64,000 bases of DNA from Kineosporiaceae bacterium (GTDB lineage Bacteria > Actinomycetota > Actinomycetes > Actinomycetales > Kineosporiaceae): assembly GCA_016794595.1 (NCBI GenBank), contig JAEUJN010000076.1, positions 158,749 to 222,748 of the forward strand. Reading direction: 5' to 3'. Under the pieces are notes generated by a model. That model did no database searches. It was not told the DNA's origin and saw only the letters and a list, made by a program, of their open reading frames with translations. Positions 10,078 to 29,942 of the stretch are shown piece by piece (the first letter of the stretch is position 1; each line of letters begins with the position of its first letter). The translations under genes and the position numbers were made by a program.

Positions 10078-10084
10078 GCCGGTC

Positions 10085-10090
10085 ACCCTA
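10085..10090 (-). promoter_or_regulatory. TAGGGT -10 box, leaderless promoter of the hydroxyacid dehydrogenase
   Basis: Read on the minus strand, TAGGGT is followed by 7 bases and then the ATG at 10077. This spacing puts transcription start at the start codon, a pattern repeated at 51671 and 54169. No clear -35 is visible. Confidence 0.45.
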
Positions 10091-10117: not shown

Positions 10118-11122
10118 TCAGACCAGCTCTCGCCAGGAGGGGGGCATGTTCTCCACGACCTCGACCCCCTCGAACCGGGTCGGTTCCTGAGGTCCGCGCG
10201 CGCTCGCCCAGGCGGCCATCCGGGCCAGCCCCTCGGCCAGGCCGACGTGCTCACGATCGCCGAAGACCTTGCGCGCCTTCTCGTGCGAGGAGTAGGCGTG
10301 CACCACCTCGTTGCGGGCCGGCAGGTGCTGCACCTCGGGGGTGACGCCCATGGCCCGCCCCACCGCGCCCACCAGTTCGTTGAGGGTGTACGGGTGATCG
10401 CCGCCGATGTTGAAGGTCTCGTTGACCGCCTCCGGCACGCTGATCGAGCGCGCGATCGGGATCGCGACATCGTCGATGTAGCTGAACGCCCGCGACTGCT
10501 CGCCGTCGCCGAAGACGGTCAGCGGTTCACCGCGCATGATCTGGTTCATGAAGATCCCGATCACGTTGCGGTAGCGGTCGCCGATGTTCTGCCGCTCGCC
10601 GTACACGTTGTGCGGACGGAAGATCACGTACGGGAGGCCGAACATCTCGTGGCTGGCGCGCAGGTCCTGCTCCACCGCGTACTTGGCGATCCCGTACGGG
10701 TCCTCGGGGGCGGGGATCATGTCCTCGCGCATCGGCAGCTGACCGGCCCCGTAGACCGCGATCGAGGAGGTGAACACGAAGCGGCGCACGGAACCGCTGG
10801 TGACCGAGGCGTTGATCAGGTTCACGCTGCCGATCACGTTGTTGGTGTAGTTGAACCGCCGGATGAAGTGGCTCAGGCCCTCGGCGGCGTACGCGGCCAG
10901 GTGGAACACGTGGTCGATCCGGCCCTGCGCGAACAGCCGGTTGACCAGGTCGTGGTCGCAGACGCTGCCCTCGACGAACCGCGCGCCGTCCGGCACGTTC
11001 TCCCGCACGCCCCCGGACAGGTCGTCCAGGACGACGACCTCGTGGCCGTCCGCGAGCAGGGTCGCAGCGACGTGCGAGCCGATGAACCCGGCACCGCCGG
11101 TGACGAGTGAGGTGGTGGTCAT
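10118..11122 (-). CDS. NAD-dependent epimerase/dehydratase (extended SDR)
   Basis: 334 aa. The N-terminal SLVTGGAGFIGSHVAATLL is the extended-SDR GxxGxxG NAD site, FTSSIAVYG carries the catalytic serine and YGIAK (YxxxK) the catalytic tyrosine and lysine. The C-terminal half (RPHNVYGERQN, AFSYIDDVA, NIGGDHPYTLNELV) is typical of nucleotide-sugar 4-epimerases and dehydratases. It likely modifies a UDP- or dTDP-sugar. The ATG at 11122 has AGGAAGG upstream; an in-frame GTG at 11131 is less likely. It is the last gene of the minus-strand cluster, 73 bases after the antiporter gene, and complements the decarboxylase-like SDR at the cluster's start. Confidence 0.88.
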   Translation of the reverse strand: MTTTSLVTGGAGFIGSHVAATLLADGHEVVVLDDLSGGVRENVPDGARFVEGSVCDHDLVNRLFAQGRIDHVFHLAAYAAEGLSHFIRRFNYTNNVIGSVNLINASVTSGSVRRFVFTSSIAVYGAGQLPMREDMIPAPEDPYGIAKYAVEQDLRASHEMFGLPYVIFRPHNVYGERQNIGDRYRNVIGIFMNQIMRGEPLTVFGDGEQSRAFSYIDDVAIPIARSISVPEAVNETFNIGGDHPYTLNELVGAVGRAMGVTPEVQHLPARNEVVHAYSSHEKARKVFGDREHVGLAEGLARMAAWASARGPQEPTRFEGVEVVENMPPSWRELV

Positions 11123-11195
11123 GAGGTGCACCTTCCTGACGGGGGGACGGGACTGGGCTCGGGCTGACCGGGCTCGGACGGCGTTCGGGCGGCGA

Positions 11196-12689
11196 TCAGG
11201 CGGTGGTCATCGTGTGGTCGCCCGGTAGCACGTTGGACGGCGTGGTGATCCGGGGCTCCACCCGGTGACCGGGCGACGGGCCACGCCCGATCCGCAGCAG
11301 GTGCAGCAGCGGGGCGACGGCCACAGTGGTCACCACCGCCATGACCACCATCACGGTGAATGCCTGCTGGTTGATCAGCCCGACCCCGAGGCCGGCACCC
11401 AGGACGACGATCTCGGTCACTCCCCGGGCGTTCATCAGCACCCCGAAACCCGTTGCCTCGCGCAGGGTCAGGCCACCGGCCCAGCCCACTCCCAGGCATG
11501 CGACCACCTTGCCGGCCACCGCGGCTGCCAGCACCAGGGCGCCGACCCCGAGGATCGCGCTGCTGCCGATCACCTCGACGGCGTTGACCTGCAGGCCGAC
11601 CGAGGCGAAGTAGACCGGCAGCAGCAGCGACCGGTTGAGGGAGTCCATGCGTTCGGGAATGTCGCTGACGTGCACCGGGTCCCGGGGAATGACCAGTCCG
11701 GCGACGAAGGCCCCCAGGATCGCGTGCACCCCGAGCCGGTGGGTGATGGCGGCCAAGGCGAGCACGGTGCCCAGCACGACGGCGATCGTGGGCGCCACGA
11801 ACGGCTGGACACCGCCCAGCCGCACCACCCAGCGCTGGGCAGCCGGGCGCACGATGCCCACCGCCACCGCCACCACGACCGCAGTCCCACCCAGCGAGGC
11901 GGCCACACTGCCCGCCGACCCGTTGGTGGCGACCGCCATGGTGAAGGCGAGTGCGGCCCAGGCCAGGACGTCGGTGCCCGCCGCACAGGTCAGCGCGAGG
12001 TTGCCCAGCCGCTGCCCTGCCAGGCCGGTCTCGGCGACCAGCCGGGCGAGCACCGGGAACGCGGTGACACTCATGGCAGTGCCGATGAACAGGGCGTAGG
12101 CCAGCGTGCTCACGTCCGGGCCGGCCAGCAGCTCCTCGGCCCCCAGCGCCACCCCCACCCCGAGCGCGAACGGCAGGGCCACCAGGGCGAGCGCGGCGGC
12201 GCCGAGAGCGGCGCCGTCCACCCGGAACCACCGGGCGTCGACCTCGCGGCCCACGGCGAACATGTAGAGCACCAGGCTCACCGTGCCCACCAGGTTGACC
12301 AGCGTGACCACCTGCGGGGGCAGCAGCCAGCCGACCACGCCGGGGGCGAGCGAGCCCAGGGCCGAGGGGCCGAGCACCAGCCCGGCGAGCAGTTCCCCGA
12401 TGATGCGCGGCTGCGCCAGGGCGGCCGCGATCCGGGCCCCGATGGCCGCCAGTACCCCGATCACGGCCAGGGCCAGGAACAGCCGCCAGACCAGGGCGAA
12501 CGGGCCGGCGTGCCCGGCCGGCGCCAGCCGCGTGCCGACACTCACCCCCTGGTGGGTGGCCAGGGCGGTCGCGGCACCGCCGAGGGCGAGCAGCCCGATG
12601 GCGATGGCGACCACCGTGGCGCGACCCGGTCGGTGCAGCAGCCGGTCCGATTGCGCAGGCTCGGGGGATGGCGAGGGGGGTGTGGTCAC
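11196..12689 (-). CDS. CPA2-family cation/proton antiporter
   Basis: 497 aa with a first hydrophobic segment near residue 25 and then a KefB/NapA-like 12-helix core: PRIIGELLAGLVLGPSALG is the conserved TM entry of CPA2 exchangers, and CAAGTDVLAWAALAF contains the transport-site aspartate region. There is no TrkA-N domain at the C-terminus, which ends soon after the last helix. The family exchanges Na+ or K+ for H+ across the plasma membrane. Its GTG overlaps the flippase stop by 4 bases (GTGA), so it belongs to the cluster operon. Its job there (ion homeostasis, or export of a charged product) is unclear. Confidence 0.88.
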   Translation of the reverse strand: MTTPPSPSPEPAQSDRLLHRPGRATVVAIAIGLLALGGAATALATHQGVSVGTRLAPAGHAGPFALVWRLFLALAVIGVLAAIGARIAAALAQPRIIGELLAGLVLGPSALGSLAPGVVGWLLPPQVVTLVNLVGTVSLVLYMFAVGREVDARWFRVDGAALGAAALALVALPFALGVGVALGAEELLAGPDVSTLAYALFIGTAMSVTAFPVLARLVAETGLAGQRLGNLALTCAAGTDVLAWAALAFTMAVATNGSAGSVAASLGGTAVVVAVAVGIVRPAAQRWVVRLGGVQPFVAPTIAVVLGTVLALAAITHRLGVHAILGAFVAGLVIPRDPVHVSDIPERMDSLNRSLLLPVYFASVGLQVNAVEVIGSSAILGVGALVLAAAVAGKVVACLGVGWAGGLTLREATGFGVLMNARGVTEIVVLGAGLGVGLINQQAFTVMVVMAVVTTVAVAPLLHLLRIGRGPSPGHRVEPRITTPSNVLPGDHTMTTA

Positions 12690-13984
12690 GGCAGGTCCTT
12701 CCCGGCGGACACGGTCGAGGGGTCTCGGGCCGTGGCGGTTCGCTCGGCGAGCGCGAGGTACATCAGCGCGGCGTGGGTGATCTCCACGGTGGCCAGGACG
12801 GCGATCGCGCCCACGCCCCCGAGCCGATCGATGATCACCGCCGAGGGCGCCACGGCGATCAGCAGGGCCGCGGCCGAGGTGGTGGCGGCCAGCCTCAACG
12901 GTCGCGGACCGGAGTTCTCCAGGGCGTAGTTCACCGTGGCCACCAGCACGAAGATCGGCACCAGCAGGCAGAAGGCGAGGAACGGGCCGAACCGGGCGGC
13001 GTCCTGGTCGGACACCATGCCTGTGACCGGGCCGACGACCAGCGCCACCACCACGACGGTCCAGACCGATCCCCCCAGGCTGCACCGAGCCAGCCAGCGC
13101 CGGGCCCGCGGACGGAGCGAGTCCCAGGCCTGCTCCCCGGCCAGGGCCAGCGACACCCGGGGCTGCAGGATCCGCAACAGGTAGGCGAACGCGGCCATCA
13201 CCAGGGTCGCCGCGGTGATGGTCAGGTAGAGCGCACCGCTGTCCTGCCGGCGTCCGGTCATCGACAGCGCGATGAAGATCAGGCTCAGGGTGATGCCGGG
13301 CACCAGATCACCGACCGCCATCCAGCCGGCGGTGGCCACGTGGTGACCGAGCCGGGCACCGGGGTGCCCCCTGACCGAGCGCAGCAGCGGCCACGCCAGC
13401 ACGGCGTCGGCCGCCGCCAGCCCCAGGCACAGCCCGAGCAGCCAGGCCAGCGGACCGGCCCCGCCGATCACGACCGCGGCGCACCACGCCAGCACCCACA
13501 CGCTCGTGGCGGCGTAGGCCCGGTAGTCGGCCGCGACGTTGCCGCGCGCGCGGTGCAGCCCGACCAGCAGCTGGTTCTGGCCCAGCAGCACCGAGTACAT
13601 CCCGGCCGCGGCCGCCAGGGCGTCGCCGCCGGGCACCACCTGCCGGACGCCGATCACCACCGCACAGATCACCGCCAGGGCGCCGGCCAGGGTGAGCACC
13701 GTCCGGATCACCTCCGGGCCACGCTCCCCCGCCCGGGGCACCAGGGTGAGCGCGGTCTTCTCCAGGCCGACCGCGGCCAGCGAGATCAGCACCGTCGAGG
13801 CGCCCAGCGCCGCCGCGCACGCGGCGTACTCCGCACTGCCCCAGACCCCGGCCAGCACCGCGTTCGCGAGCAGCAATGCGCCCCGAAAGCCGAACCTGCC
13901 ACCCAGCAGGGTCAGCACCGTCCGGGCGGGGACATGGTGGGCCCCACCGGGTTCCGTCGCCCGTTCAGTCGCCCGGCTCATCAT
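12686..13984 (-). CDS. Flippase-like polysaccharide export membrane protein
   Basis: 432 aa with about 12-14 hydrophobic helices evenly spread, beginning LLGGRFGFRGALLLANAVLAG and including a central SGALYLTITAATLVMAAFAYLL and RILQPRVSLA pattern that resembles the Wzx/MATE (MVF) fold of O-antigen and teichoic acid flippases. No catalytic motif is expected. In a cluster with a GT2 enzyme, sugar SDRs and CapK-like ligases it would translocate a lipid-linked intermediate. The start is ATG 13984 (the adjacent ATG 13981 is also possible). It lies 62 bases after the PaaK-like gene and overlaps the antiporter gene. Similarity is at the level of topology, so a different transporter role is possible. 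Confidence 0.7.
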   Translation of the reverse strand: MMSRATERATEPGGAHHVPARTVLTLLGGRFGFRGALLLANAVLAGVWGSAEYAACAAALGASTVLISLAAVGLEKTALTLVPRAGERGPEVIRTVLTLAGALAVICAVVIGVRQVVPGGDALAAAAGMYSVLLGQNQLLVGLHRARGNVAADYRAYAATSVWVLAWCAAVVIGGAGPLAWLLGLCLGLAAADAVLAWPLLRSVRGHPGARLGHHVATAGWMAVGDLVPGITLSLIFIALSMTGRRQDSGALYLTITAATLVMAAFAYLLRILQPRVSLALAGEQAWDSLRPRARRWLARCSLGGSVWTVVVVALVVGPVTGMVSDQDAARFGPFLAFCLLVPIFVLVATVNYALENSGPRPLRLAATTSAAALLIAVAPSAVIIDRLGGVGAIAVLATVEITHAALMYLALAERTATARDPSTVSAGKDLP

Positions 13985-14046
13985 CGGCCCCTGCGCAGGC
14001 TCATTGCCGGCTCATCGTCTGCCGCATCGCCGGACTCATCGCCGGC

Positions 14047-15309
14047 TCAGCCCTGCACCAGCTCGGAGGCGACGAACTTGCCCTTGCCGCCGACGGTGAG
14101 CGGGGTGCTGGTCGCCGCCTCGATCTCGAGCGGGAACGCCTCGCCGGCGATCCGGGTCAGGCTCTCGCGCACCGCCACCTCCGACGGCCCCTGGCCACCC
14201 ACCGGGACGACGAACAGCCGCACCACGCCGCGCGCGTCCTGGCGGACGAAGCACTCCGAGATGCCCGGGTGGGTGGCGGCCAGGTGCAGGAAGGTGTCCG
14301 GGTAGAGGCGCCGCCCGCTGGGCAGCACGACGTAGTCGTTGGTGCGGCCCACGGTCAGCTCCAGGGTGCGGAAGGTCCGCCCGCAGGGGCAGGGCTGCGG
14401 CGCGATCCGGCCCCGGTCGCCGAGGTCGTAGCGCAGCAACGGCATCGCCCGCTCCATGAAGGGGGTGATCACCAGCCGGCCCTCCACGCCGTCCGGCACC
14501 GGGCGGCCCCGGTCGTCGAGCACCTCGACCACCAGCCGGTCCTCGCTCAGGTGAGCCCGGCCGCGGGCGCAGTCGTAGGAGATGTTCAGCGTCTCGAAGG
14601 CGGAGTACTCGTCGAACACCGGCACCCCGAAGGCCTCGGCGAGGTCGGCCCGGGCCTGCGGGACCAGCAGTTCGGACTCGGTCATCACCATCCGCAGGCT
14701 CGACCGCAGGGCCGCCAACTGGTCGGCGTCCAGCTCACGCAACAGCGCGCGCAGGTGCACCGGGTAGCCGATCACCACGTGGGGCCGGTTGGCCAGCAGC
14801 TCCTGCGTGATGGCCTCCAGGCCGCGCTCGGTGAGCAGCACGTGCCGGCGGAACAGCCCGAACCGTTCGAACCGGCGAGCGGGCGGGGCGAACGGGCGGA
14901 TGTGGCTGAGCCGGTACCACGGCAGGTAGCGCCCGGTGGCCGCGAACCGGCGGACCAGGGCCGCGGAGTGGTAGTCGTGGCTGAACCGGTCGTGGCGGAT
15001 CTCGACCCGGGCGCCGGTCGACCCGCTGGTGCGAAAGACCAGGCAGTCGGTCGCCGCGACGTCCTCGGCGTGAAAGGACGCCGGGTCAGCGCGCAGCCAG
15101 GACTTGTCGATCACCGGTAGCTCGGCCAGGTCGGCCAGGGTCCGCAGCCGGCGGTGGTAGTCGGGGCGGTCGCGGTAGTGCGGCACGTGGGCGATCGCCC
15201 GGTCGAGCATGGTGCGACACCCGGCCAGCTGGCGTTCGGTGATCCGGGAACGGTCGTGGTACTGGCGGCGCAGGGCGATCGGGATCCCGGCGACCTCACG
15301 CAGGAACAT
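14047..15309 (-). CDS. PaaK/CapK-like adenylate-forming enzyme (cluster copy 3)
   Basis: 420 aa. It shows the phenylacetate-CoA ligase-family plan: an N-terminal HVPHYRDRPDY segment, the P-loop FRTSGSTGARVEI (SGSTG at residues 95-99), YSAFETLN, then RYDLGDRG and a Cys-rich CPCG turn before the C-terminal subdomain ending in a GGKGKFV lysine loop. Such enzymes adenylate a carboxylate; CapK relatives occur in capsule clusters with unknown substrates. It overlaps the membrane protein gene by 14 bases. The retained P-loop and C-terminal lysine suggest it is active. The acceptor, whether CoA, carrier or sugar, cannot be inferred. Confidence 0.85.
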   Translation of the reverse strand: MFLREVAGIPIALRRQYHDRSRITERQLAGCRTMLDRAIAHVPHYRDRPDYHRRLRTLADLAELPVIDKSWLRADPASFHAEDVAATDCLVFRTSGSTGARVEIRHDRFSHDYHSAALVRRFAATGRYLPWYRLSHIRPFAPPARRFERFGLFRRHVLLTERGLEAITQELLANRPHVVIGYPVHLRALLRELDADQLAALRSSLRMVMTESELLVPQARADLAEAFGVPVFDEYSAFETLNISYDCARGRAHLSEDRLVVEVLDDRGRPVPDGVEGRLVITPFMERAMPLLRYDLGDRGRIAPQPCPCGRTFRTLELTVGRTNDYVVLPSGRRLYPDTFLHLAATHPGISECFVRQDARGVVRLFVVPVGGQGPSEVAVRESLTRIAGEAFPLEIEAATSTPLTVGGKGKFVASELVQG

Positions 15310-15997
15310 CGCTGTCCTGCGGCAGGTCGACCCGGCGCGCCCCCGGGCGCCGCGCCCACACCCGGTCGACCACCCGGTCCGGCGTGGCCAGCACCACCAG
15401 GGCCAGGGTCAGGTGGACGCCGATGAACGCGAAGGCCTCCTCCTTGGAGGGCCAGTGCCCGAGACGGACCTTCATGTGCGAGGGCCAGGTCCAGGTCTGC
15501 GGGATCGGGTCGAACGGCGTCCCGCTGAGGTCGTTCACGGTCAGGAAGGCCAGGTCCTCGATCCCCGAGACCATGATCAGCAGCATGCCGTAGGCGAGCC
15601 GCCGGACGACGCGTGGCGATCCGCCGCCGAGCCGGTAGGCCAGGGTCAGGGCAAGGATCATGAACGGGACCAGCAGCAGCACCGTGTAGTAGAGCGAGCC
15701 GAAGGCGTCCTCGTCCTCCGTGCGCACCCCGCCCCAGTAGAAGATCCGCGGGACGAAGTAGGCGAAGAAGACCAGGAAGCAGACCGGGATCAGCAGCCGG
15801 ACGGCGCCCAGGCGCCGGAACGCCTCGACGTCGAGGCGGGCGATGGTCTCGGCGGCCAGGATGAACGGGATCAGCTTGAGCACGAACTCGGCCAGCGAGC
15901 CGACCTCGCGGTTGTGCGGCAGGCCGAAGGCCACCCCGGCCGCACTGAGCACGGTCAGAACGGCGAAGATCCAGAAGTGGGTGCGGCGCGCGGTCAT
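15296..15997 (-). CDS. Uncharacterised six-helix membrane protein
   Basis: 233 aa with about six hydrophobic segments (for example FWIFAVLTVLSAAGVAFGL at the start and FIGVHLTLALVVLAT near the end). Polar loops carry FYWGGVRTEDEDAFGSLYY and TWTWPSHMKVRLGHWPSKEEA, which are rich in aromatic and charged residues and might form an active site. I do not recognise the family. Its ATG overlaps the stop of the GT2-ATP-grasp gene by 4 bases (ATGA), and its end overlaps the PaaK-like gene, so it is a core part of the cluster and likely acts on the membrane-bound intermediate made by the glycosyltransferase. Confidence 0.75.
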   Translation of the reverse strand: MTARRTHFWIFAVLTVLSAAGVAFGLPHNREVGSLAEFVLKLIPFILAAETIARLDVEAFRRLGAVRLLIPVCFLVFFAYFVPRIFYWGGVRTEDEDAFGSLYYTVLLLVPFMILALTLAYRLGGGSPRVVRRLAYGMLLIMVSGIEDLAFLTVNDLSGTPFDPIPQTWTWPSHMKVRLGHWPSKEEAFAFIGVHLTLALVVLATPDRVVDRVWARRPGARRVDLPQDSDVPA

Positions 15998-18264
15998 GCG
16001 GGGATGCCGCCTCTCGTGGGGTGGGTGGGCAGGGCGGCGGCGTCAGCAGGGCCAGGGTCGGCTTCGCCGACCTCATCGGCGTCGGCCAGGTCGATCAGGT
16101 CCGGCGCGATCTGCCACCGCAGGGTGGCCAGCACCTCGTCGCGGACCCGCCGGAGTTCGTCATGGGTGGGGGCGACGATCACCAGGTAGCCCAGCTTCTC
16201 GTTCGCCTGGGTGTAGGGCCGTACGCGCTCCCCCGGCCGCTTGAACAGCTCGAGCAGCCTGACCTCCGGCCGCGCCCGGACCTCCTGCTCACCGTCCACG
16301 CCGATCAGGGTGCCCTCGCGATCGACGTGCAGGATGTGCAGCATCGCCACCTGCTGCCGGGTGGCGCGCAGGTCGGGGGTCTGGCCCAGGGCCAGGCGCA
16401 GCGCCGCCTCGACGGTGTTCAGCCCGAACGCCTCCCGGGACAGCAACGGCATCCCGTTGCCGCCGAGCCGGGCCCCCATCTCGATCAGCACGATGTCCGC
16501 CTGCGGGGTGACCACGAAGTCCACGTTCAGCGGCCCGTCGGTCAGGCCCAGGTGGGCGGTCACCTCGGCGATCATCTCGCGCACCCGGACCACGATCGGC
16601 TCGGGCAGGGCGGCCGGCACCACGTGCGAGATGCTGTTCAGGTGGGGCACCCCGGTCAGGGTGCGTTCGGTGATCGCCGCGTGGGCCAGCTCGCCGCCGA
16701 CGATGAAGCACTCGGCCGTGTGATGGCTCCCCGCGACCAGCCGCTCGATCACCACGGTCCGCGACGGTGAGCCGTCCAGCGCCCGTACGATCGCCGCGTC
16801 CAGCTCGGCGGCGTCGGTGACACAGGTCAGGCCCTTGCTGCCGGAGGAGTCCGTCGGCTTGACCACCACCGGCAGCCCCAGTCGCCCGGCGTCGCGGCGC
16901 AGGGTCTCGCGGTCGCTGCCGTGCACCGCCGGGTAGGTCGCAAAGCCCAACGCGCGCAACACCTCGTGGAAGGCCGTCTTGTCGACGGAGGCCCGGACGG
17001 CGCCCTCCGGCACGCGGTGCGCCGTGCCGAGCTTGTCGCACAGGGCGGCGACCGCCTCCTGTGCGGCATCGCTGGCCGGCGAGATCACCGCAGCCACCCT
17101 GTGGTGGTCCAACCGACCGGCGATCCGGTCGGGGTCGCGGGTGGTGATCGCCAGGAACTCGTCCGCCAGCTGAGCCCCCAGGCAGTCCGGGCGCAGGTCC
17201 ACCCCGACCACGCGGTAGCCGAGGCGGCGCGCCTCCCGGTAGGCGGGGATCTGGTCCTCTCCCCCGCCCAGGACGACCACGGTGTCACGTGCGTGTGTAC
17301 TCATTTGCTCCTGCATCTCGTATCCGTAGAGGTGCTCCTCGGGACGCACCGGGATGTTGCTCTCGCGGACCTGGAACCCCGGGAAGGTGCGGGCCTGCAC
17401 TCGCATCACCCGGATCAGGTACCGGGCGGTCATCGCCTGCAACCCCAGCAGGCCGGCCAGGGCCGCCGCCCCGAGCACCTGCACCGGCCCCGACCCGACC
17501 CACAGGGAGGCCAGCAGGGCCAGCACCAAAGCCAGCGACAGGGTGGCCGCGGTGACCTCCAGGGCCATCAGCGGGCGGTAGGAGAACCCGACGAACAACT
17601 CGACGGCGTGCATCACCAGGTGGTGCAGCCGCCACTTGCCCGAGCCCCCCTGCCGGGGACTGTGGTCGGTGGGTTCCACCGCGTACCTCGCGCCCAGCAG
17701 TGGTGCCGTGGCCAGGAAGTACGGCGTGGACATCCGGGTCTCGACGATCTTGTGGGCGACCGAGGTCCGCACCACCCGGAACACCGAGGCACCCAGCGGG
17801 ATCTCGATGCCCAGCAGGTGCGCCGCGATCACCTGGTGGGCATGGGTTCCGGCGCGCCGCCACCAGGCGTCGGAGCGGTCGCGGCGGATGGCGAAGACGA
17901 CGTCGTAGCCCTCCCGGGCCCGTTCCACGAGCCGGTGCATCTCGGCGGGTGGCGACTGCAGGTCCGCGTCGAGCTGGACCGTCCAGCCCTTGGAGGCGTA
18001 CTTGAAGCCGGCCGTGAACGCCGCCTCCAGCCCGAAGTTGCGGCTGAAGGAGAGGTACTTGACCCGATCGTCCTGGGCCGCGAAGGCCTTGATCCGCTCC
18101 AACGTGCCATCGGAGCTGCCGTCGTCGACGAAGAGGATCTCCACGTCGTCGTACCGGTCGACCTCACGGGCGATCTCGGTGTAGCAGCGGTCGATGCAGT
18201 CGATCTCGTTGTAGCAGGGAACCATCGCGGTCAGGCCGGAGGGGCCCGGGAGGTGCCACGTCAT
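15994..18264 (-). CDS. GT2 glycosyltransferase fused to an ATP-grasp ligase
   Basis: 756 aa in one uninterrupted frame. Residues 1-320 are a DPM1/GtrB-like GT2: MVPCYNE, FVDDGSSDGT and QLDADLQSPP (DxD near 99-101), then two TM helices around 240-300, so it should transfer a sugar from a nucleotide donor to a polyprenyl phosphate. From residue 321 an ATP-grasp ligase starts with VVVLGGGEDQIPAYREA, followed by VVKPTDSSGSKG (ATP lid), FIVGGE, and the metal-binding IEMGARLGGNG. ATP-grasp enzymes couple a carboxylate to an amine via acyl phosphate. AGGAG sits just before an internal ATG at 17304, suggesting a recent gene fusion or a second translation start. It lies 32 bases after the halogenase gene. 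Confidence 0.88.
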   Translation of the reverse strand: MTWHLPGPSGLTAMVPCYNEIDCIDRCYTEIAREVDRYDDVEILFVDDGSSDGTLERIKAFAAQDDRVKYLSFSRNFGLEAAFTAGFKYASKGWTVQLDADLQSPPAEMHRLVERAREGYDVVFAIRRDRSDAWWRRAGTHAHQVIAAHLLGIEIPLGASVFRVVRTSVAHKIVETRMSTPYFLATAPLLGARYAVEPTDHSPRQGGSGKWRLHHLVMHAVELFVGFSYRPLMALEVTAATLSLALVLALLASLWVGSGPVQVLGAAALAGLLGLQAMTARYLIRVMRVQARTFPGFQVRESNIPVRPEEHLYGYEMQEQMSTHARDTVVVLGGGEDQIPAYREARRLGYRVVGVDLRPDCLGAQLADEFLAITTRDPDRIAGRLDHHRVAAVISPASDAAQEAVAALCDKLGTAHRVPEGAVRASVDKTAFHEVLRALGFATYPAVHGSDRETLRRDAGRLGLPVVVKPTDSSGSKGLTCVTDAAELDAAIVRALDGSPSRTVVIERLVAGSHHTAECFIVGGELAHAAITERTLTGVPHLNSISHVVPAALPEPIVVRVREMIAEVTAHLGLTDGPLNVDFVVTPQADIVLIEMGARLGGNGMPLLSREAFGLNTVEAALRLALGQTPDLRATRQQVAMLHILHVDREGTLIGVDGEQEVRARPEVRLLELFKRPGERVRPYTQANEKLGYLVIVAPTHDELRRVRDEVLATLRWQIAPDLIDLADADEVGEADPGPADAAALPTHPTRGGIPA

Positions 18265-18296
18265 CGCAGTCGTTGTCTCGTGTCTCGATGCGGGTC

Positions 18297-19061
18297 TCAG
18301 TCGAACATGGCGTGCATGGTCTCGTGCGTGGCCGCGCGGGCGATGTCCTTCGGGCTCGCCCAGCACGTGTTGAGGATGATCCGGGTGCGGTCGGCGGACA
18401 GCGGGATCGTGCGGTGCAGGGTGGTGTCCGAGCGCAGGAAGTAGGTGTCCCCGGTGACGTGCGGCCAGGTGCGGATGGGCAGCATCTCCAGGTGCTCGGT
18501 GGTGCGCGGGTCCTCCTTGTCCCACACCGTGTGCGGCACGGTCTGCAACTGGCCGCCGAACTCCCCGCTGGGGGCCTCGATGATCCAGATGAGGGTGAAG
18601 GAGAAGTCGCCCCAGTGCCACCCGTGGGTGTCGCCCTGCTTGTGCTGGCGAATGGCGATGTACTTCTCGCCCTCCCAGGGGCAGTCCAGCACCTCGTCAC
18701 CGGCCAGCCGTCCCAGAAAGGCCTTCAGCGCCGCGGACTCGTAGACCGCCGGGATCAGCTCGCTGTTCTCGGCGATCGCTGCCTGGGAGAGCGTGCTCAT
18801 GTAGCGAGGGGTGTTGCCCGTCTCCTTGAGCTTGATGTCGATCCGCTTCTCGTGGGCGTCGAGCAGCCGGATCGTCTCGACCCGGACGCGCTCGATCAGG
18901 TCCGCGGAGACCAGGCCGGAGAGCTTGACGTAGCCCTCGCGGCGGTAGTGGTAGGCGAGCTTTCGCAGCTCCCAGTCGTCGGTGTACCGCTCGGCGATGT
19001 GCGCGGCGATCTCGCGATCGATCTCGGCGGCCAGCTGAGAACGGGTGTCGATGGTGGTCAT
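18297..19061 (-). CDS. BesD/HalD-type Fe(II)/2-oxoglutarate-dependent amino-acid halogenase
   Basis: 254 aa, the length of the BesD family. The iron site reads DTHGWHWGDF: H149-W150-G151, where glycine replaces the aspartate or glutamate of ordinary dioxygenases and so leaves room for chloride, with the distal histidine H216 in RSDTTLHRTIP. The H-to-H spacing of 67 equals that I recall for BesD (H137/G139/H204). With the same +12 offset, R86, E132, H146, D152 and N231 coincide with residues I recall as lining the BesD lysine pocket. Family members chlorinate free amino acids such as lysine. AGGAGG lies 5 bases before the ATG, which overlaps the upstream PaaK-like stop (ATGA). A hydroxylase function is less likely given the HxG motif. 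Confidence 0.88.
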   Translation of the reverse strand: MTTIDTRSQLAAEIDREIAAHIAERYTDDWELRKLAYHYRREGYVKLSGLVSADLIERVRVETIRLLDAHEKRIDIKLKETGNTPRYMSTLSQAAIAENSELIPAVYESAALKAFLGRLAGDEVLDCPWEGEKYIAIRQHKQGDTHGWHWGDFSFTLIWIIEAPSGEFGGQLQTVPHTVWDKEDPRTTEHLEMLPIRTWPHVTGDTYFLRSDTTLHRTIPLSADRTRIILNTCWASPKDIARAATHETMHAMFD

Positions 19062-20422: not shown

Positions 20423-21324
20423 CAGCCCTCCCTGGCCAGCAGGGCCGGGCGGTCGTGCACCGGGCAACTGCCGGCCCGCCAGCCCTCGATACCCTCGGGC
20501 CGTAACCGGATCAACACGGGGCCGTGCCGGCGCAACACCGTGAACTCGGGGCAACCGTCCTGCCCGACGGTCAGGGTGAGCGGTCCGGGCACCAGGTGCC
20601 AGGCGCTGCACCCGGCGGGACGGGCGGCGAACGGGCCGAGGTGACGGTCGACCAGTACCGCAGGAACGCTCTCCCCCACCGCATCCGGCCCCCGGTCTCG
20701 TCCGGCCCCCTCGGCTGGCCAGGCCAGGAGACTGGACCGCAGGCACCGTCGCGCCGGCGCCGCCTGCCCGGGACCGCTGCCGGCCAGCTCGGCGTCCAGG
20801 GCCCGCAGGTCCTCGGCCGAGCCGTACAGCAGTGCGTCCGGCCCGAGCTCGCGGCGCAGCCTGCGCTGGTCGGCGGCCACGGCCGGCGCCGCATGATCGA
20901 GGCAGATCAGGACCGACACGTAGCGCAGGCCGGCCACCCGGTCCCAGTCGCGCAGCGCCGTCCCCACCTCGGCGAGCACGCCCTCCGGTGTTCCCGGCGG
21001 CGCATCGGTCACGGCTGCGGCCTCGCGCAGGGCCGCGCCCAGTCCGGAGGCGGTGGTGGCCGGCGGGACGTCGTCCGGCATCGGCCGCTCGAACGGGAAC
21101 AGGGCGGGCAGCACCGCGTCGGCCTCGGCGGCGGACAGGGGCGGCGGCTCCCCCAGCACGCATCCCGCGCGTGCCCAGTGGTCGCGGTAGTGCGGCACGG
21201 CGGCGAAGGCGTACCGGACGACGTCGCGGTAGCCGGGGTAGGTGGGGTGGGCGGGAGGCGCCGGGCGCGCGGGACGGCGCAGGCCGCGGACGAGACCCGG
21301 GCCGAGGAGGCGGCGATCGCTCAT
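20422..21324 (-). CDS. Degenerate PaaK-like protein, function unknown
   Basis: 300 aa. The N-terminus keeps the family entry pattern (YPGYRDVVRYAFAAVPHYRDHWA), but no SGSTG-type P-loop, YSAxE or RYxLGD motif follows; the rest is Ala/Gly/Arg-rich with short motifs such as YVSVLICLDHAAP and a Cys-containing C-terminus. The gene is intact, with an ATGA overlap upstream and TGATG downstream, so it is unlikely to be simple decay. It may be a structural or carrier partner of the neighbouring ligases. The ATG at 21324 is chosen for its overlap with the transferase stop; a GTG at 21333 is an alternative. Confidence 0.6.
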   Translation of the reverse strand: MSDRRLLGPGLVRGLRRPARPAPPAHPTYPGYRDVVRYAFAAVPHYRDHWARAGCVLGEPPPLSAAEADAVLPALFPFERPMPDDVPPATTASGLGAALREAAAVTDAPPGTPEGVLAEVGTALRDWDRVAGLRYVSVLICLDHAAPAVAADQRRLRRELGPDALLYGSAEDLRALDAELAGSGPGQAAPARRCLRSSLLAWPAEGAGRDRGPDAVGESVPAVLVDRHLGPFAARPAGCSAWHLVPGPLTLTVGQDGCPEFTVLRRHGPVLIRLRPEGIEGWRAGSCPVHDRPALLAREG

Positions 21325-22340
21325 GCGGCCCACCCCCGCCGTCGTCCGGGCAGGATCGCCCGCAGCACCGCCTGTCGCGGCACCAACCGGGCTCCGAAGG
21401 CGGTCTTGACCTCGGGCATCCCCGGCCCGAACTCGATCGAGTCCAGCCCCGAGGCGATCAGGTGCTCGATCTCGCGCAGGTACAGGTCGAAGTAGAGATT
21501 GCGCACCCCCGACTGCGGGCTGTCCAGCCCCCCGTGCACCAGGGTCAGCAGGTCCTTGCCCCAGCCGATCATCAGGTCGAAGGCGAGCAGGCGCTCACCG
21601 TCGGCGTACCCGAGGAAGCAGACCCCCGGACGCCGGGCCAGCTGCTCGAGGTAGACCGGCGACAGTGGCGGGACAGCGCGTCCCCCGGCGTGCCGTGCCC
21701 GGGTGAGCGAGTCCAGCCGGCTGGCCTGCCGGGCATCGATCGTCTCCGCCGTGAAGGGCTGCACCCGGACGGCGGCGGCCACCTCGCGCCGCAGGCGCAC
21801 CAGCCGTCGACGGCGCCGGGCGGGCAACCAGGCCAGGTAGGCGTCCAGGTCGTCCCACGCGTTGTGCAGCACGGTGCTCGGCGAGGTGCCCCGCAGGACG
21901 GCCGGGCCGAACAGCAGGTCCTCGGCGTCCTCGACCTTCTCGTACAGGCAGCCGAGCAACCCCGGCCCGAGGTCGGCCCGCAGGGCCGACTCGAACGCCC
22001 GGATCGCCTGCCGCCGCTCGGGCCGCGGCAGACAGTCGGCGAAGTGCACCCCGCGCGAGAAGCTGACCGGCATCCGGCAGCTGAACACCCCGGCGACCCT
22101 CCGGCGGGCGGGCGCGGAGTACTGCCGGGCCGCCCGGCCGGTGAGCACGTCCCCGGTCAGGACGGCGACCACGTCCCCGCCCTCACGCACGATCCCCACC
22201 CGGACGGCGCGGGTCGAGGTCCAGGCGAGCGCGGTGAGCACGTCCGCGTGCATCGAGGCCGGCAGGGAGCGGGCCAGGCGGAAGGCCTCCCAGTCCGCCG
22301 GGATCGGCCGCGCCGTCGGGTCGATGATCTCAGCCTGCAT
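21321..22340 (-). CDS. FemAB/GNAT-like acyl- or aminoacyltransferase
   Basis: 339 aa. The layout resembles FemAB/BioF2-like double-GNAT proteins: an N-terminal half with PVSFSRGVHFADCLP and an acceptor-side region, the basic helix WDDLDAYLAWLPARRRRRLVR, and a second GNAT core with GYADGERLLAFDLMIGW and LYFDLYLREIEHLIASGL. Such proteins transfer an acyl group, and FemX-type members use aminoacyl-tRNA. The gene starts inside the end of the lysyl-tRNA synthetase gene (11-base overlap), which makes a lysyl-tRNA-dependent transfer the attractive hypothesis. A CoA-dependent N-acyltransferase is the alternative. The acceptor is unknown. Confidence 0.68.
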   Translation of the reverse strand: MQAEIIDPTARPIPADWEAFRLARSLPASMHADVLTALAWTSTRAVRVGIVREGGDVVAVLTGDVLTGRAARQYSAPARRRVAGVFSCRMPVSFSRGVHFADCLPRPERRQAIRAFESALRADLGPGLLGCLYEKVEDAEDLLFGPAVLRGTSPSTVLHNAWDDLDAYLAWLPARRRRRLVRLRREVAAAVRVQPFTAETIDARQASRLDSLTRARHAGGRAVPPLSPVYLEQLARRPGVCFLGYADGERLLAFDLMIGWGKDLLTLVHGGLDSPQSGVRNLYFDLYLREIEHLIASGLDSIEFGPGMPEVKTAFGARLVPRQAVLRAILPGRRRGWAA

Positions 22341-24033
22341 CGGGCACCTGCGCCTGCGGGACCGCCAGGCGGGCCAGCACCACCGACCGCCAGACCCCCG
22401 GCTCGTGCGGCCGGTCGCCTGCTCCCTCGGAGGCCGCGGCCAGCGCCGTGGCCACCTGGGCGGCACCGAACTGCTCGCGCACCCGGCGCAGCGGGGGCCC
22501 GCACCGGGTACCGAACAGTGCCCGGTAGATCTGTTCCGGCGACACCTGCGGGGCCAGCTCCGCCGGCCCTCCCGGGAACAGCTCCGACGACGGTCCCGGC
22601 GGACGGTGCCCGGACGGCCCGGACGGCTCGGGCGGAACCCCTGCGGCGGTGGGGATCTCGGGCCCCGCCGGCCGGTCCGCCGCGACGTCCCGCACGATCC
22701 AGCAGCGATCGCGACCGTGCCGGGCGAGCCAGGCGCGGGCATGCTCGACCCGTTCGGCGACCAGCGCGCGCAGCGGGGAATCGGCCGGCACCAGGTGCTC
22801 GCAGGCCGCGGCCGGGTCGTAGCTGCTCGCGTGCAACGCCCCCAGGACGCTGCGCCAGCGCGGCAGCCGGGCGTGCGGGGGGTCATCGGTGACCAGCTCG
22901 TGCAGGGCAGCAGCGCGGCCGCCGTGCGCCGCGGCGTCCACGAACGCGTCGAAGGCCGCGTAGGCCGCGTGCATCGTGGCCCAGTCCAGGCCGATCCGGA
23001 TGTCGGAGCGGGCCGGTGCCCGGCCGTACAGCCAGAGCACCATCCGCGCCGGCATGACGTCCAGCAGGTCGCCGAGCCGCAGTCCACCGCCGGTCGACCC
23101 GGAGATCTTGCGATGCTGCCCCGGCTCGCGGACCAGGCCGTAGGGGATGATCACCGGCTGCGGGCGGTGCAGGTAGTCGCTGAAGACGGGCCGGGTGCGG
23201 TCCATGGTGCTGCCCGCGGTGCAGTGGTCCTGGCCGGCGGGCTCGCAGTCGATGCCCTCGTGCGCCACCCGCAGGGTCCAGTCCACCGCCCAGATCGGCT
23301 TGACCGGCCCGGGATCGGTGGTGGCGCGGGCGGTTCCGCACGAGCGGCAGCGGTAGCCGACCCGCTCGCTGCCCAGGACCTCGATCGTCGTGGTGTTCCG
23401 CCCGCAGGCCTCGCAGTAGACGGCGAACAACCGCTCCGGGCGGGATCCGTTGAGCAGGGCCGTCAGCCGCGCCGCGTCGCGCTGGTAGGTCCGCTGGAGC
23501 GTGGCGTACTCCCCCGCGAGGTAGCGCTGGTGCTGGTAGTGCGTCTGCCACTGCGCGTGCGCTCCCCGGCCGTCGGCGTCCAGGTCGGGCGGGCAGATCC
23601 CGGCCCGGGTGAGCTCGGCCAGGTACTGCCGGCACAGGCGCCGAGACCGCTCGCCGAGGGCACCCAGGCAGCGACCGTCCTGCCCGGGGACGCTGCCGGG
23701 ACGGACGGGGTCGTAGTCGTCGAAGGACAGCAGGATCTGTGACCGCCGGCCCATCCGCAGCAGCGCCCGGTGCACCAGATGCGCGCAGGCGGTGTCCCGG
23801 AAGTTGCCGACGTGGAACGGTCCGGTGGGCGACATGCTGGTCTGGATCACGATGACGTGCGAGGCCGGGTGCCGCTCGGCCAGGCGTCGGGCGTAGTCGA
23901 CCGCCCAGTGGGGTGCCGAGCGGTCGCCGGCGAACAGGGAGGCATACCCCTCACGGTCGTGCGCCGCCGGGCGGGGACGTGATGTGGCCGGACGGGACAC
24001 CAGGCGCCGCACCCGGCTGATCCCCGCCGTCAT
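22330..24033 (-). CDS. Class I lysyl-tRNA synthetase homologue within a biosynthetic cluster
   Basis: 567 aa, near the normal class I LysRS length. The HIGH motif is SPTGPFHVGNF (H74-N77), the Zn knuckle is CEAC (207/210) with CRSC (229/232), AVDWTLRVAHEGIDCEPAGQDH matches the VDW...EP.G.DH active-site block, and the KMSKS loop is RKISGSTGG (K309-S313), where the usual downstream Lys is Thr. The C-terminal third should be the helical anticodon-binding cage, with a Pro/Ser-rich insert around residues 450-490. It normally charges tRNA-Lys. Overlaps with a PaaK-like gene (ATGA) and the FemAB-like gene argue for a specialised copy serving the pathway. Whether another LysRS exists in the genome cannot be seen here. 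Confidence 0.87.
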   Translation of the reverse strand: MTAGISRVRRLVSRPATSRPRPAAHDREGYASLFAGDRSAPHWAVDYARRLAERHPASHVIVIQTSMSPTGPFHVGNFRDTACAHLVHRALLRMGRRSQILLSFDDYDPVRPGSVPGQDGRCLGALGERSRRLCRQYLAELTRAGICPPDLDADGRGAHAQWQTHYQHQRYLAGEYATLQRTYQRDAARLTALLNGSRPERLFAVYCEACGRNTTTIEVLGSERVGYRCRSCGTARATTDPGPVKPIWAVDWTLRVAHEGIDCEPAGQDHCTAGSTMDRTRPVFSDYLHRPQPVIIPYGLVREPGQHRKISGSTGGGLRLGDLLDVMPARMVLWLYGRAPARSDIRIGLDWATMHAAYAAFDAFVDAAAHGGRAAALHELVTDDPPHARLPRWRSVLGALHASSYDPAAACEHLVPADSPLRALVAERVEHARAWLARHGRDRCWIVRDVAADRPAGPEIPTAAGVPPEPSGPSGHRPPGPSSELFPGGPAELAPQVSPEQIYRALFGTRCGPPLRRVREQFGAAQVATALAAASEGAGDRPHEPGVWRSVVLARLAVPQAQVPDAG

Positions 24034-25325
24034 GACGGCATCGGGATGATGTCGGGGACCTTGCCGCCGGCGGTGCGCTCGATCCGCTCGACCAGGTCGA
24101 TCTCGATCGAGACCTCCGAGCCGAACTGGCGCCGGACGGCCTCGCGCACGGCCTGGGCGGTCGCCTGGTCGGTGCCCGGGTCCGGGATGATCCGCACCAC
24201 CAGGTCGGTCAGCGAGGTCTGGGCCACCTGGTAGCGCCGCAGGGTCGGGATCTCGCGCAGGTGCGCACACAATCGGGCACCGGTGATCCGCTGGCCGCCG
24301 GTGGTCAGCACGGCCGAGGCGCCACGCCCCTCCAGCGAGGTCATCCGGCGCAACGGCCGGCCGCAGCCGCAGGGACGGCTGTCCACCGTGCCGCGGTCCC
24401 CGATCCGGTACCGCACGAACGGCATGGCCGCGCCGTACAGCCCGGTGACGACCAGCTCGCCCGGGCTCCCCTCGGGCACCGGCCGGCCGTCGTCGTCCAG
24501 CACCTCGACCAGGACCGCGTCGTCGTTGAGGTGCCGGGTGCCCAGGGCGCACTCGAAGGCGATGCAGCCGAACTCGATCGTGCCGTAGAGATCCACCACC
24601 CGGGCACCGACGCCGTCGGCGATCTCGCGTCGCGCGTCCTCGGTCAGGGTCTCGGCCCCGGTGGTCACCCACCGGATCCCCAGGCCGCTCACGCGATCCG
24701 GGCCGAGTCGGTCGAGCAGTTCGAGGATGTGGCTGGGGTACCCGCCGAGCACGTGCGGGCGGAGCTCGCGCAATCTCGCGGCGAGTCGGGCATCGGGGGC
24801 GTCGATGTCCAGGTGCTCGGCCCGGAAGATCCCCAGGCGCTCGGTCAGGGTCGGGGACGACGGCAGGTTGCGGAAGTAGGCGGTCCGGTGGTGCGGCCGA
24901 AGACCGTAGGCCAGGTGCGAGCGGGCCCAGACGGCGTCCAGCACTGCCGCCGAGGCGGGATCGTGCGGGACCACCAGCGGCTCACCGGTGCTGCCCGACG
25001 TGGGGGCCGAGCGGACCCCGCGGGCCCGCGCCGCCGGGGTGAGGATCTGCTCCACGTCGGCTCGCACCATGGTCTTGCTGACCAGCGGGAAACCGGCCAG
25101 GTCCCCGGCCGTACGCACCGAGGAGGGCTCGCATCCCGCCTCCTGCCAGAGCCTGCGGTACCAGGGCGAGTGAGCCGCCGTGTGGCGGACCACCTCGACC
25201 AGCCGCGCATCCCTGGCCCGGACCAGCCGGTCGCGGTCCCGACGGCCGGAGGCGGTCACCCTGGCCAGGGCGGAGAGCCGGGCGGCGGCCGCCGGGACCG
25301 CGGCCGGCATCGATGGCGTCCTCAC
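24030..25325 (-). CDS. PaaK/CapK-like adenylate-forming enzyme (cluster copy 1)
   Basis: 431 aa. Family marks in order: HTAAHSPWYRRLWQEAGC, P-loop APTSGSTGEPLVVPHD (SGSTG at 110-114), VVDLYGTIEFG in place of YSAxE, MPFVRYRIGDRG, CGCG turn, and a C-terminal ERTAGGKVPDI lysine loop. It should form an acyl adenylate and possibly a thioester. The GTG start overlaps the stop of the 67-aa gene (GTGA), and its stop overlaps the LysRS ATG. Three intact and one degenerate copy in one operon imply several distinct carboxylate activations or sequential acceptor steps. Confidence 0.86.
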   Translation of the reverse strand: MRTPSMPAAVPAAAARLSALARVTASGRRDRDRLVRARDARLVEVVRHTAAHSPWYRRLWQEAGCEPSSVRTAGDLAGFPLVSKTMVRADVEQILTPAARARGVRSAPTSGSTGEPLVVPHDPASAAVLDAVWARSHLAYGLRPHHRTAYFRNLPSSPTLTERLGIFRAEHLDIDAPDARLAARLRELRPHVLGGYPSHILELLDRLGPDRVSGLGIRWVTTGAETLTEDARREIADGVGARVVDLYGTIEFGCIAFECALGTRHLNDDAVLVEVLDDDGRPVPEGSPGELVVTGLYGAAMPFVRYRIGDRGTVDSRPCGCGRPLRRMTSLEGRGASAVLTTGGQRITGARLCAHLREIPTLRRYQVAQTSLTDLVVRIIPDPGTDQATAQAVREAVRRQFGSEVSIEIDLVERIERTAGGKVPDIIPMPS

Positions 25326-25525
25326 GGCCGCCCCGGGGTGCGCTCGTTGCCGCGCCGGTAGTTCCCGGTCGCCCGCGCCAGCACCTGCTGGTCGCTGTCC
25401 TCGTCCCGGCCGAGCAGGGCGATCACCCGGGCGGCCTTGGCCCCGGCGAGGGTCACCACCAGCCGTCCCCCGCGCGAGATCAGCACCTTGCCGTCCTTGG
25501 TGATCCGGTGGTCAAACGGTTCCAC
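25322..25525 (-). CDS. Small conserved protein, 67 aa
   Basis: A basic 67-residue protein starting EPFDHRITKDGKVLISRGGR and ending in a GNYRRGNERTPG tail. I recall similar short actinobacterial hypotheticals with the ITKDGKVLIS and RATGNxxRGNER signatures, but no known function. The GTG at 25525 overlaps the end of the SDR gene by 14 bases, and the stop overlaps the start of the PaaK-like gene, so it is clearly translated with the cluster. It might be an adaptor or nucleic-acid-binding partner, given its charge and the next-but-one LysRS gene; this is speculation. Earlier in-frame sequence belongs to the SDR reading overlap. Confidence 0.7.
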   Translation of the reverse strand: MEPFDHRITKDGKVLISRGGRLVVTLAGAKAARVIALLGRDEDSDQQVLARATGNYRRGNERTPGRP

Positions 25526-26531
25526 CGACAACCTCCCCCGGCTGGGTGCGGCGAAGGTCGACCTCCGGCCCACCGACGGCGACGGCCGGAGGTTCGGCCA
25601 GGGCGCGGAACCAGTCCACGGTGCGGGCCAGGCCTTCCTCCAGCGTGGTCACCGGCTCCCACCCCAGCAGGGACCGGGCAAGGTCCAGATCCGGACGCCG
25701 CACGCTCGGGTCCTCGGCCGGGCGGGGCACGTAGCGGATCGGCGCGGCGGAACCGGCCACCGACCGGATGCGCCGGGCCAGCTCCTCGATGGTGATCTCC
25801 TCGGTGGCCCCGAGGTTCACCGGACCCCGGTGAGAGCTGGCGGACAGCCGGATCAGCCCGTCCACGATGTCGTCGACGTAGCAGACCGACCGGGTCTGGC
25901 TGCCGTCCCCGGCGACCGTGAGCGGTTGCCCGTGCAGCGCCTGCCAGATGAAGGTCGGCACCGCGCGGCCGTCGTCGGGGCGAAGGCCCGGACCGTAGCA
26001 GTTGAACAACCGGGCGATGCCCACGCTCAGGCCGGTGCGGCCGGCGAAGGCGACCGTGAGCGCCTCGGCGAACCGCTTGGCCTCGTCGTACATGCTCCGA
26101 GGACCGACGGGGTTCACGTTGCCCCGGTAGGACTCCCTCTGAGGGTGTTCGAGCGGGTCCCCGTACACCTCCGAGGTGGAGGCGAGGACGAACCGGGCCG
26201 AGGTGCGCTGGGCCAGGTTCAGCAGGTGGTGGGTCCCCAGCGAGCCGGTCAACAGGGTCTCGACCGGCAGTCGGGCGTAGTCGTGCGGAGAGGCCGGCGA
26301 GGCGAGGTTGACCACCAGGTCCACCGGGCCGTCGAGGTCGACCGGCCGGCAGATGTCCCCCTCGACCAGGGTGAAGCCCGCCCGGGTCAGCAGGGAGCGG
26401 ATCCCGGAGCGAGGCGCGGTGGCGAAGTTGTCGACACAGACCACCTGCGCACCGTCGTCGAGCAGACGACGGCACAGGTGTGTGCCGATGAACCCCGCGC
26501 CTCCGGCCACTACGACGCGTTCGAAACCCAC
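25512..26531 (-). CDS. UDP-glucuronate decarboxylase-like extended SDR (UDP-xylose synthase type)
   Basis: 339 aa. VVVAGGAGFIGTHLC is the NAD site. LASPASPHDYARLP, FVLASTSEVYGDP, NVNPVGPRSMYDEAKR (YxxxK) and ARLFNCYGPGL follow the UXS family closely, which makes UDP-xylose from UDP-glucuronate. CoA or lipid substrates are not indicated. The GTG at 26531 gives the usual short N-terminus before the Rossmann strand; the frame stays open upstream to a GTG at 26633, but that part is not SDR-like. No good Shine-Dalgarno is visible. As first gene of the cluster operon, it implies a pentose or 4-keto sugar in the product. Confidence 0.85.
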   Translation of the reverse strand: MGFERVVVAGGAGFIGTHLCRRLLDDGAQVVCVDNFATAPRSGIRSLLTRAGFTLVEGDICRPVDLDGPVDLVVNLASPASPHDYARLPVETLLTGSLGTHHLLNLAQRTSARFVLASTSEVYGDPLEHPQRESYRGNVNPVGPRSMYDEAKRFAEALTVAFAGRTGLSVGIARLFNCYGPGLRPDDGRAVPTFIWQALHGQPLTVAGDGSQTRSVCYVDDIVDGLIRLSASSHRGPVNLGATEEITIEELARRIRSVAGSAAPIRYVPRPAEDPSVRRPDLDLARSLLGWEPVTTLEEGLARTVDWFRALAEPPAVAVGGPEVDLRRTQPGEVVGGTV

Positions 26532-28409: not shown

Positions 28410-28413
28410 GGGA

Positions 28414-29940: not shown

Positions 29941-29942
29941 GG

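Follow-up and report, generated by a model that had tools for sequence, protein, structure and literature searches.

Why would a bacterium encode a free-amino-acid halogenase close to a second lysyl-tRNA synthetase (LysRS)? The question is raised by positions 10118–26531 of a 64,000-nt stretch of DNA (the window) that covers positions 158,749–222,748 of the forward strand of contig JAEUJN010000076.1 from Kineosporiaceae bacterium (assembly GCA_016794595.1; 4.95 Mb, 123 contigs, 99.4% complete; window GC content ~0.72). The region spans ~16 kb and contains 14 genes, all on the minus strand. These genes are a conserved biosynthetic cluster, the native setting of the Streptomyces wuyuanensis halogenase SwHalB, and we consider it about an even bet that they direct a tRNA-dependent pathway placing chlorolysine onto a pentose-bearing, likely lipid-carried and likely exported compound. 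The genes, in window coordinates and from the upstream end, are as follows.

UXS, 25512..26531, minus strand: UDP-glucuronate decarboxylase/UDP-xylose-synthase-like SDR (Epimerase 165.9 bits); the start codon is uncertain, with the frame open to 26633.
Small open reading frame (ORF) of 67 amino acids, 25322..25525, minus strand: lies between UXS and PAAK1 and overlaps the end of UXS.
PAAK1, 24030..25310, minus strand: PaaK/CapK-like adenylate-forming ligase, accessory (AMP-binding 43.4 bits; PaaK NCBIfam below cut-off).
LYSRS, 22330..24033, minus strand: class I LysRS paralogue of a distinct subfamily (tRNA-synt_1f 145.7 bits; structure 1irx, E 4e-30).
FEM, 21321..22340, minus strand: GNAT/FemAB-like transferase overlapping LYSRS (Acetyltransf_6 22.4 bits, cut-off 22).
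DEG, 20422..21324, minus strand: PaaK-related protein, conserved, with no visible P-loop; a GTG start at 21333 is also possible.
PAAK2, 19058..20422, minus strand: PaaK/CapK-like adenylate-forming ligase, core (AMP-binding 25.6 bits, under the cut-off of 29.9; PaaK-type NCBIfam below cut-off).
HAL, 18297..19061, minus strand: HalB-type iron/2-oxoglutarate (Fe/2OG) free-amino-acid halogenase with an HWG motif (PF23169 HalD 307.8 bits).
GT-AG, 15994..18264, minus strand: GT2 glycosyltransferase (GT) fused to an ATP-grasp/L-amino-acid-ligase-like domain (AG) (Glycos_transf_2 110.1 bits, LAL_C2 62.6 bits, ATP-grasp).
MEM, 15296..15997, minus strand: protein with ~6 transmembrane (TM) segments and invariant His, Asp and Glu.
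PAAK3, 14047..15309, minus strand: PaaK/CapK-like adenylate-forming ligase, core (AMP-binding 34.5 bits).
FLIP, 12686..13984, minus strand: polysaccharide-flippase-like membrane protein.
NHA, 11196..12689, minus strand: CPA2-type cation/proton antiporter (Na_H_Exchanger 150.7 bits).
SDR2, 10118..11122, minus strand: nucleotide-sugar epimerase/dehydratase-type SDR (Epimerase 190.6 bits), the most conserved gene of the cluster.

The original prediction, made from the DNA sequence alone, treated these genes as one cluster, a claim at odds with homologues scattered independently among related genomes. A halogenase alignment served to scan the contigs of GTDB genomes, and we fetched the best 80 of 202 loci, each spanning at most 10 kb on either side and some lying on short contigs; clusters cut off at an edge (e.g. 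L058) may be missed. Twelve of the 80 loci, a lower bound, carry the cluster (L009–L019 and L031), and their hosts are six Streptomyces, two Streptosporangium, two Sphaerisporangium, one Actinoplanes, and one Stackebrandtia metagenome-assembled genome (MAG). HAL, GT, AG, MEM, PAAK2, PAAK3, FLIP, and SDR2 occur together in all 12. Six cluster loci were extended; with these, every one of the 10 readable loci contains LYSRS, FEM, DEG, and a SnoaL-like protein, DEG of L031 having been identified by blastp. The flanks of L015 and L016 fall outside coverage for LYSRS and FEM, although S. griseoflavus has a cluster-type LysRS (P0131). In nine of these 10 relatives LYSRS overlaps FEM, and in L019 the two genes are neighbors. 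By contrast, the 68 other halogenase loci gave zero matches to LYSRS, FEM, the SnoaL-like protein, DEG, GT, MEM, PAAK2, PAAK3, or FLIP (tblastn, E ≤ 1e-5), and at the same threshold gave 9 matches to AG, 2 to UXS, 2 to SDR2, and 19 to the antiporter, all of which are common families. FEM was found in 10/10 cluster genomes compared to 0/10 genomes with a HalB-like halogenase outside the cluster, genomes that are related and do not amount to 20 independent cases. Scattering was not what we found: the halogenase, LysRS paralogue, GT, and ATP-grasp genes, whose co-occurrence the prediction had proposed as a check, lie together in relatives. At the level of gene content, these comparisons confirm that the combination is not a product of chance and is a real, conserved, co-inherited cluster.

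The window differs from its relatives in having the GT-AG fusion and PAAK1, and in having no SnoaL-like gene. In the 10 readable relatives, this gene encodes 120 amino acids between FEM and DEG (e.g. L009:7513-7875), and a search of the 64-kb window gave no significant match to it anywhere. Some relatives also carry UDP-glucose dehydrogenase and regulators. Among the 198 genomes around that of the window, itself included, three have a HalD-family match: the window's own and those of L007 and L008 (G022 and G002), one strong (278 bits, order level) and one weak (39.6 bits, same family), two short loci in which no other cluster genes were seen. The sporadic occurrence of the cluster suggests horizontal spread.

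The substrate of HAL can be approached through its relatives. HAL exceeds the PF23169 cut-off of 26 bits, and the segment HGWHWGD is found in 13/13 cluster halogenases, window included, and in 76 of 79 aligned halogenases, the remaining three reading HGWHWDD; in the HxG motif, Gly replaces the Asp of the iron triad, which we take to be the mark of Fe/2OG halogenases of this kind. Among solved structures, Halogenase B, which is SwHalB (PDB 7u6i/7u6j), is closest to HAL in sequence, with 158 of 244 residues identical to 7u6i (65%). The score of HAL for the BesD equivalog NF042920 (L-lysine 4-chlorinase) is 236.9 bits, under the cut-off of 450. The cluster locus of S. wuyuanensis, L017, encodes SwHalB itself, with 247/247 aligned residues identical to 7u6i. 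SwHalB is reported to chlorinate free lysine, and its chlorolysine can enter a peptide via an in vitro translation system; the position of chlorination is not stated in the accessible text of this review (PMC8407142). Lysine as the HAL substrate, as originally proposed, is therefore supported through a 65%-identical, characterized orthologue encoded in the same cluster, and by analogy with BesD chlorination would be at position 4.

Chlorine need not persist in the product. Chlorolysine could instead be a leaving-group intermediate that is cyclized or undergoes elimination to give a product without chlorine, a course that is compatible with the chlorolysine pathway and that we regard as a minority possibility, though the best-placed of the alternatives. 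BesD is described as a cryptic halogenase in β-ethynylserine biosynthesis in PMC8407142, which favors this course, but the cluster has no obvious dehalogenating or alkyne-forming gene, MEM and the SnoaL-like protein being of unassigned role.

The chlorolysine pathway next requires an enzyme that activates the amino acid. LYSRS scores above the tRNA-synt_1f cut-off of 27 bits and has the motifs and C-terminal domain of the class I LysRS fold family, whereas its 118.6 bits against the TIGR00467 translation equivalog fall under the cut-off of 147.55. The cluster type has kept the C-terminal domain, presumably the tRNA-binding part: comparison of 48 of 50 cluster C-termini to five of seven others gave E 2.6e-13 (local) and 1.2e-16 (global), with C-termini dropped where the KMSKS-type motif was not located. 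A profile search found at least 49 database proteins of this type in addition to the window copy; it scored 7,995 candidates sharing most words, and the gap to the next match is partly an effect of that preselection. Named members come from S. wuyuanensis, S. griseoflavus (P0131), S. jumonjinensis, Nonomuraea, and Streptosporangium, and P0142 is 99% identical to LYSRS of the window. We compared this single pair of subfamilies using eight reference sequences (a segment of 1irx plus seven class I genes found in the genomes studied here) and listed positions invariant in the references with a different residue in ≥95% of the cluster type; P0168 has no N-terminal part, which leaves some positions counted out of 49 rather than 50, and P0170 (22%) was dropped as a non-member. 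Fourteen positions differ by this rule, including (1irx numbers) G27S (49/49), E41D (49/49), W226V (50/50), and F233C (50/50). The HIGH- and KMSKS-type motifs are intact; H35, N38, W218, H240, Y268, S281, and S283 are kept, as is K279 in all sequences but one. The class I LysRS of the original prediction is therefore present, but as a member of a distinct subfamily rather than a plain second copy. LYSRS as the sole housekeeping LysRS was rejected: the window's genome has a full LysRS-I on another contig (368.9 bits), to which LYSRS is ~25% identical, and a separate LysRS is found in nine of 10 cluster genomes (class I in six, class II over cut-off in four, one with both), with none found in the MAG G206. 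We tentatively suggest, at odds clearly below even, that LYSRS is a natural chlorolysyl-tRNA synthetase, evolved for a halogenated non-protein amino acid and feeding a transferase that builds a lipid-carried glycan antibiotic.

The candidate for that transferase is FEM. FemABX transferases have a double-GNAT fold and a catalytic lysine, K305 in FemX. A profile search gave at least 26 FEM proteins, the window's own included, and in the family alignment (n = 28) K312 is invariant within G.G(M/L)..(L/V)K..FG, making it a candidate for the equivalent of FemX K305. Acetyltransf_6 matches 13/28 members and FemAB_like 1/28 (Pfam, E ≤ 0.1), so that the FemAB-like assignment made by the prediction is weak at the sequence level.

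LYSRS could also supply plain lysyl-tRNA to FEM, with the ATP-grasp or PaaK-like enzymes bringing in chlorolysine by a separate route, an explanation we rate a little below that of cryptic chlorine. It would agree with the retention of W218, H240, and Y268, presumed lysine contacts, in 50/50 sequences. Such supply has a precedent in the valanimycin pathway, in which SerRS supplies VlmA. The use of ordinary aminoacyl-tRNA by GNAT-fold transferases is also established, according to the main text of a review (PMC12945691). However, the fixed substitutions are not obviously needed for a task that the housekeeping LysRS could perform. Finally, it is unlikely that LYSRS is a self-resistance copy, an altered enzyme sustaining translation while the product inhibits LysRS: subfamily-specific residues beside intact catalytic motifs, another LysRS in nine of 10 relatives and in the window's genome, and the description of SbzA of the sbz cluster as such a copy in that review (PMC12945691) speak for it, but the low identity to the other LysRS of the genome does not, the overlap or contact with FEM suits a donor–transferase pair, and, should chlorolysine serve as a substrate and not as an inhibitor, the housekeeping LysRS could go on charging it despite the extra copy.

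The chlorolysine pathway would also use the ligases of the cluster. The original prediction named three PaaK/CapK-like ligases and a degenerate copy. All three ligases are present in the window, but only PAAK2 (48–59% identity) and PAAK3 (55–63%) are core, occurring in 12/12 loci; PAAK1 is accessory, with a likely orthologue only in L019 (39%, 285 bits; 152–178 bits elsewhere). PAAK1–3 retain the TSGS(T/S)G loop and a C-terminal GK, which makes adenylation by these enzymes plausible. The loop is not visible in the DEG family alignment, and an hhalign comparison of shallow alignments of the DEG and PAAK families supports DEG as a distant, shortened PaaK relative (probability 71, E 3.7e-5). The relation to PaaK thus stands, whereas decay does not: DEG is a conserved family present in every readable locus, and a pseudogene was rejected. 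DEG adjoins PAAK2 in nine of 10 readable loci and is one gene away in L019; it likely acts as a PAAK2 partner.

The sugar and membrane genes would supply the carrier. GT matches the structures of ArnC and of sll0501 (5ekp; which we take to be GtrB) at E values of 3e-31 to 3e-26 and, in a simple hydropathy scan, has two C-terminal TM segments, as expected of a GT2 enzyme of the sll0501/ArnC, polyprenyl-phosphate type; it scores under the ArnC and PgfS equivalog cut-offs (PgfS, 136.6 compared to 500). The polyprenyl-linked machinery of the original prediction is consistent with these matches. Its GT2–ATP-grasp fusion holds for the window, where it is a single frame of 756 codons; of the 12 relatives, the 11 resolved by gene calling (all but L019) have two neighboring genes instead. 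The ATP-grasp part carries an L-amino-acid-ligase C-terminal domain (LAL_C2). UXS orthologues (54–61%, ≥346 bits) occur in 10/12 loci; UXS has, presumably, a UXS-type motif around TSEVYGDP...NPVGPR..YDE.KR, its 25 listed NCBIfam matches are all below cut-off, and UDP-xylose synthase activity is predicted from the SDR/Epimerase match. SDR2 is found at 67–73% identity in 12/12 loci. In four of 12 loci, a UDP-glucose dehydrogenase gene is found no more than 8 kb from HAL, as a route from UDP-glucuronate to UDP-xylose would need; together with a SARP-type regulator in six of 12, it fits a regulated pathway using UDP-glucuronate. FLIP (31–39% identity, 12/12 loci) belongs to a family in which five of 11 members match Polysacc_synt (best 2.4e-5) and the window copy itself does not, which agrees with the predicted flippase-like protein. 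MEM (48–57%, 12/12 loci) has a modest AF2 (AlphaFold2) model (mean pLDDT 71.6) that gave 0 PDB matches at E ≤ 0.001. The antiporter occurs in nine of 12 loci, at some distance in L019, and may go with lysine halogenation itself, because 19 of 68 non-cluster halogenase loci have an antiporter match. Five Pseudomonas loci without the cluster (L048, L049, L055, L059, L060) have CPA2-type antiporter genes (33–38% identical to that of the window) ~1.2–1.4 kb upstream of BesD-type halogenases. Four Legionella loci (L069, L073, L075, L084) encode BesD-type halogenases of 42–44% identity, with no other cluster-gene match within 10 kb.

Taken in sequence, the proposed pathway would run as follows. HAL would chlorinate free L-lysine, as reported for its orthologue SwHalB; LYSRS would charge tRNA with chlorinated (or plain) lysine; and FEM would transfer the tRNA-bound (chloro)lysine to an acceptor that offers an amine or a hydroxyl group. 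Further amide or ester bonds might then be added by the ATP-grasp domain and by PAAK2 (likely with DEG) and PAAK3, as adenylating enzymes. UXS and SDR2 would supply a UDP-pentose-type sugar that GT would load onto polyprenyl phosphate, and MEM, FLIP, and the antiporter would complete and export the product. We infer the product, the LYSRS substrate, the acceptor, and the order of steps, whereas lysine chlorination is reported for SwHalB.

Several observations weigh against this pathway. Nothing directly favors chlorolysine over lysine as the LYSRS substrate. Several of the 14 LYSRS changes are conservative (E41D, V231I, M224L, S246T), and any pair of subfamilies that have diverged can be expected to differ at fixed positions, the 14 having been counted without a control pair. 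The equivalents of G27, W218, H240, and Y268 presumably line the lysine site, and three of these contacts are unchanged. The FEM profile found no FemX match in the PDB, only an unrelated weak one at E 0.24, and its Pfam support is weak; therefore, the predicted tRNA dependence of FEM rests on its pairing with LYSRS. The polyprenyl acceptor of GT is proposed by analogy with its GT2 relatives, neither L014 nor L019 shows a UXS orthologue, and three of the 12 loci lack the antiporter. In a midpoint-rooted tree of 79 halogenases (the window and 78 of the 80 loci, two with segments of ≤180 amino acids having been dropped), the cluster halogenases do not have a clade to themselves: the smallest group that holds all 13 cluster copies also takes in six stand-alone copies (weak support, 0.287). 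Beyond SwHalB, we know of no product, transcript, or enzyme of the cluster.

The layout of the window is compatible with joint expression. As originally described, the 14 minus-strand genes are all found and most junctions are overlaps or short gaps: ATGA at PAAK1/LYSRS, FEM/DEG, PAAK2/HAL, and GT-AG/MEM; TGATG at DEG/PAAK2; GTGA at FLIP/NHA; and overlaps of 11 bases at LYSRS/FEM and 14 bases at MEM/PAAK3. The longest intergenic gaps are 32, 62, and 73 bases, and 216 bases separate the first cluster gene from gatB (318 if the start is at 26531). Because most junctions are stop–start overlaps, a single transcript is likely. The small ORF has no Pfam or NCBIfam match and is probably not cluster-specific; it has 38–45% matches in seven of 12 cluster loci, some outside the cluster. 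Membership of the upstream GatCAB genes (26850-30239) is unsupported, as their NCBIfam scores exceed the cut-offs for GatA, GatB, and GatC of the ordinary kind; they were not searched for in relatives. Membership of the downstream D-2-hydroxyacid dehydrogenase (9106-10086) is likewise unsupported (0/12 cluster loci). Positions 52418-53820, ~26 kb from the cluster and probably unrelated, resemble (29–33%) the paired histidine kinase and response regulator genes found beside LYSRS in some of the Streptomyces clusters.

The available text of one review does not state the natural purpose of SwHalB (PMC8407142), and the cluster gives this enzyme a conserved home and a testable pathway. Given its pairing with a lysine chlorinase, the LysRS subfamily makes a good candidate for the charging of halogenated lysine, which, if true, bears on how cells handle non-protein amino acids and on genetic-code engineering. 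Two families of the cluster, MEM and DEG, have no assigned function, and in named strains, S. wuyuanensis among them, the cluster should lead to its product.

In the literature searched, mostly open-access and without the primary SwHalB report, we found no description of the cluster, although the neighborhood of SwHalB may have been noticed before, and no tRNA-dependent pathway with a natural chlorolysyl-tRNA synthetase. In the text available from each source, PMC10187165 has zero occurrences of the lysine-site residue names, PMC12871659 has zero occurrences of HalB, BesD, or lysine, and the words lysyl, lysine, halogenase, and glycosyl do not occur in the main text of PMC12945691, which has no lysine case. 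SwHalB is the same gene in the same cluster and, in the accessible part of its review, is described as an isolated enzyme without mention of a cluster or product (PMC8407142). The bes pathway of S. cattleya (BesD) uses the same halogenase family on free lysine but, to our knowledge, has no GT, LysRS, or PaaK genes. The BagE/FevW bagremycin/ferroverdin synthetases and the DVU_1553/PaaK ligases are matched by PAAK1–3, all below curated cut-offs. ArnC, sll0501, and PgfS share the GT2 domain and two C-terminal TM segments with GT, which here is fused to or adjoins an L-amino-acid-ligase-like ATP-grasp domain. VlmA of valanimycin, Orf11 of BD-12, PacB of pacidamycin, and DhpH/DhpK of dehydrophos are also GNAT-like transferases, accompanied here by an aminoacyl-tRNA synthetase gene; compared to these systems, the cluster would join tRNA-dependent natural-product assembly to free-amino-acid halogenation.

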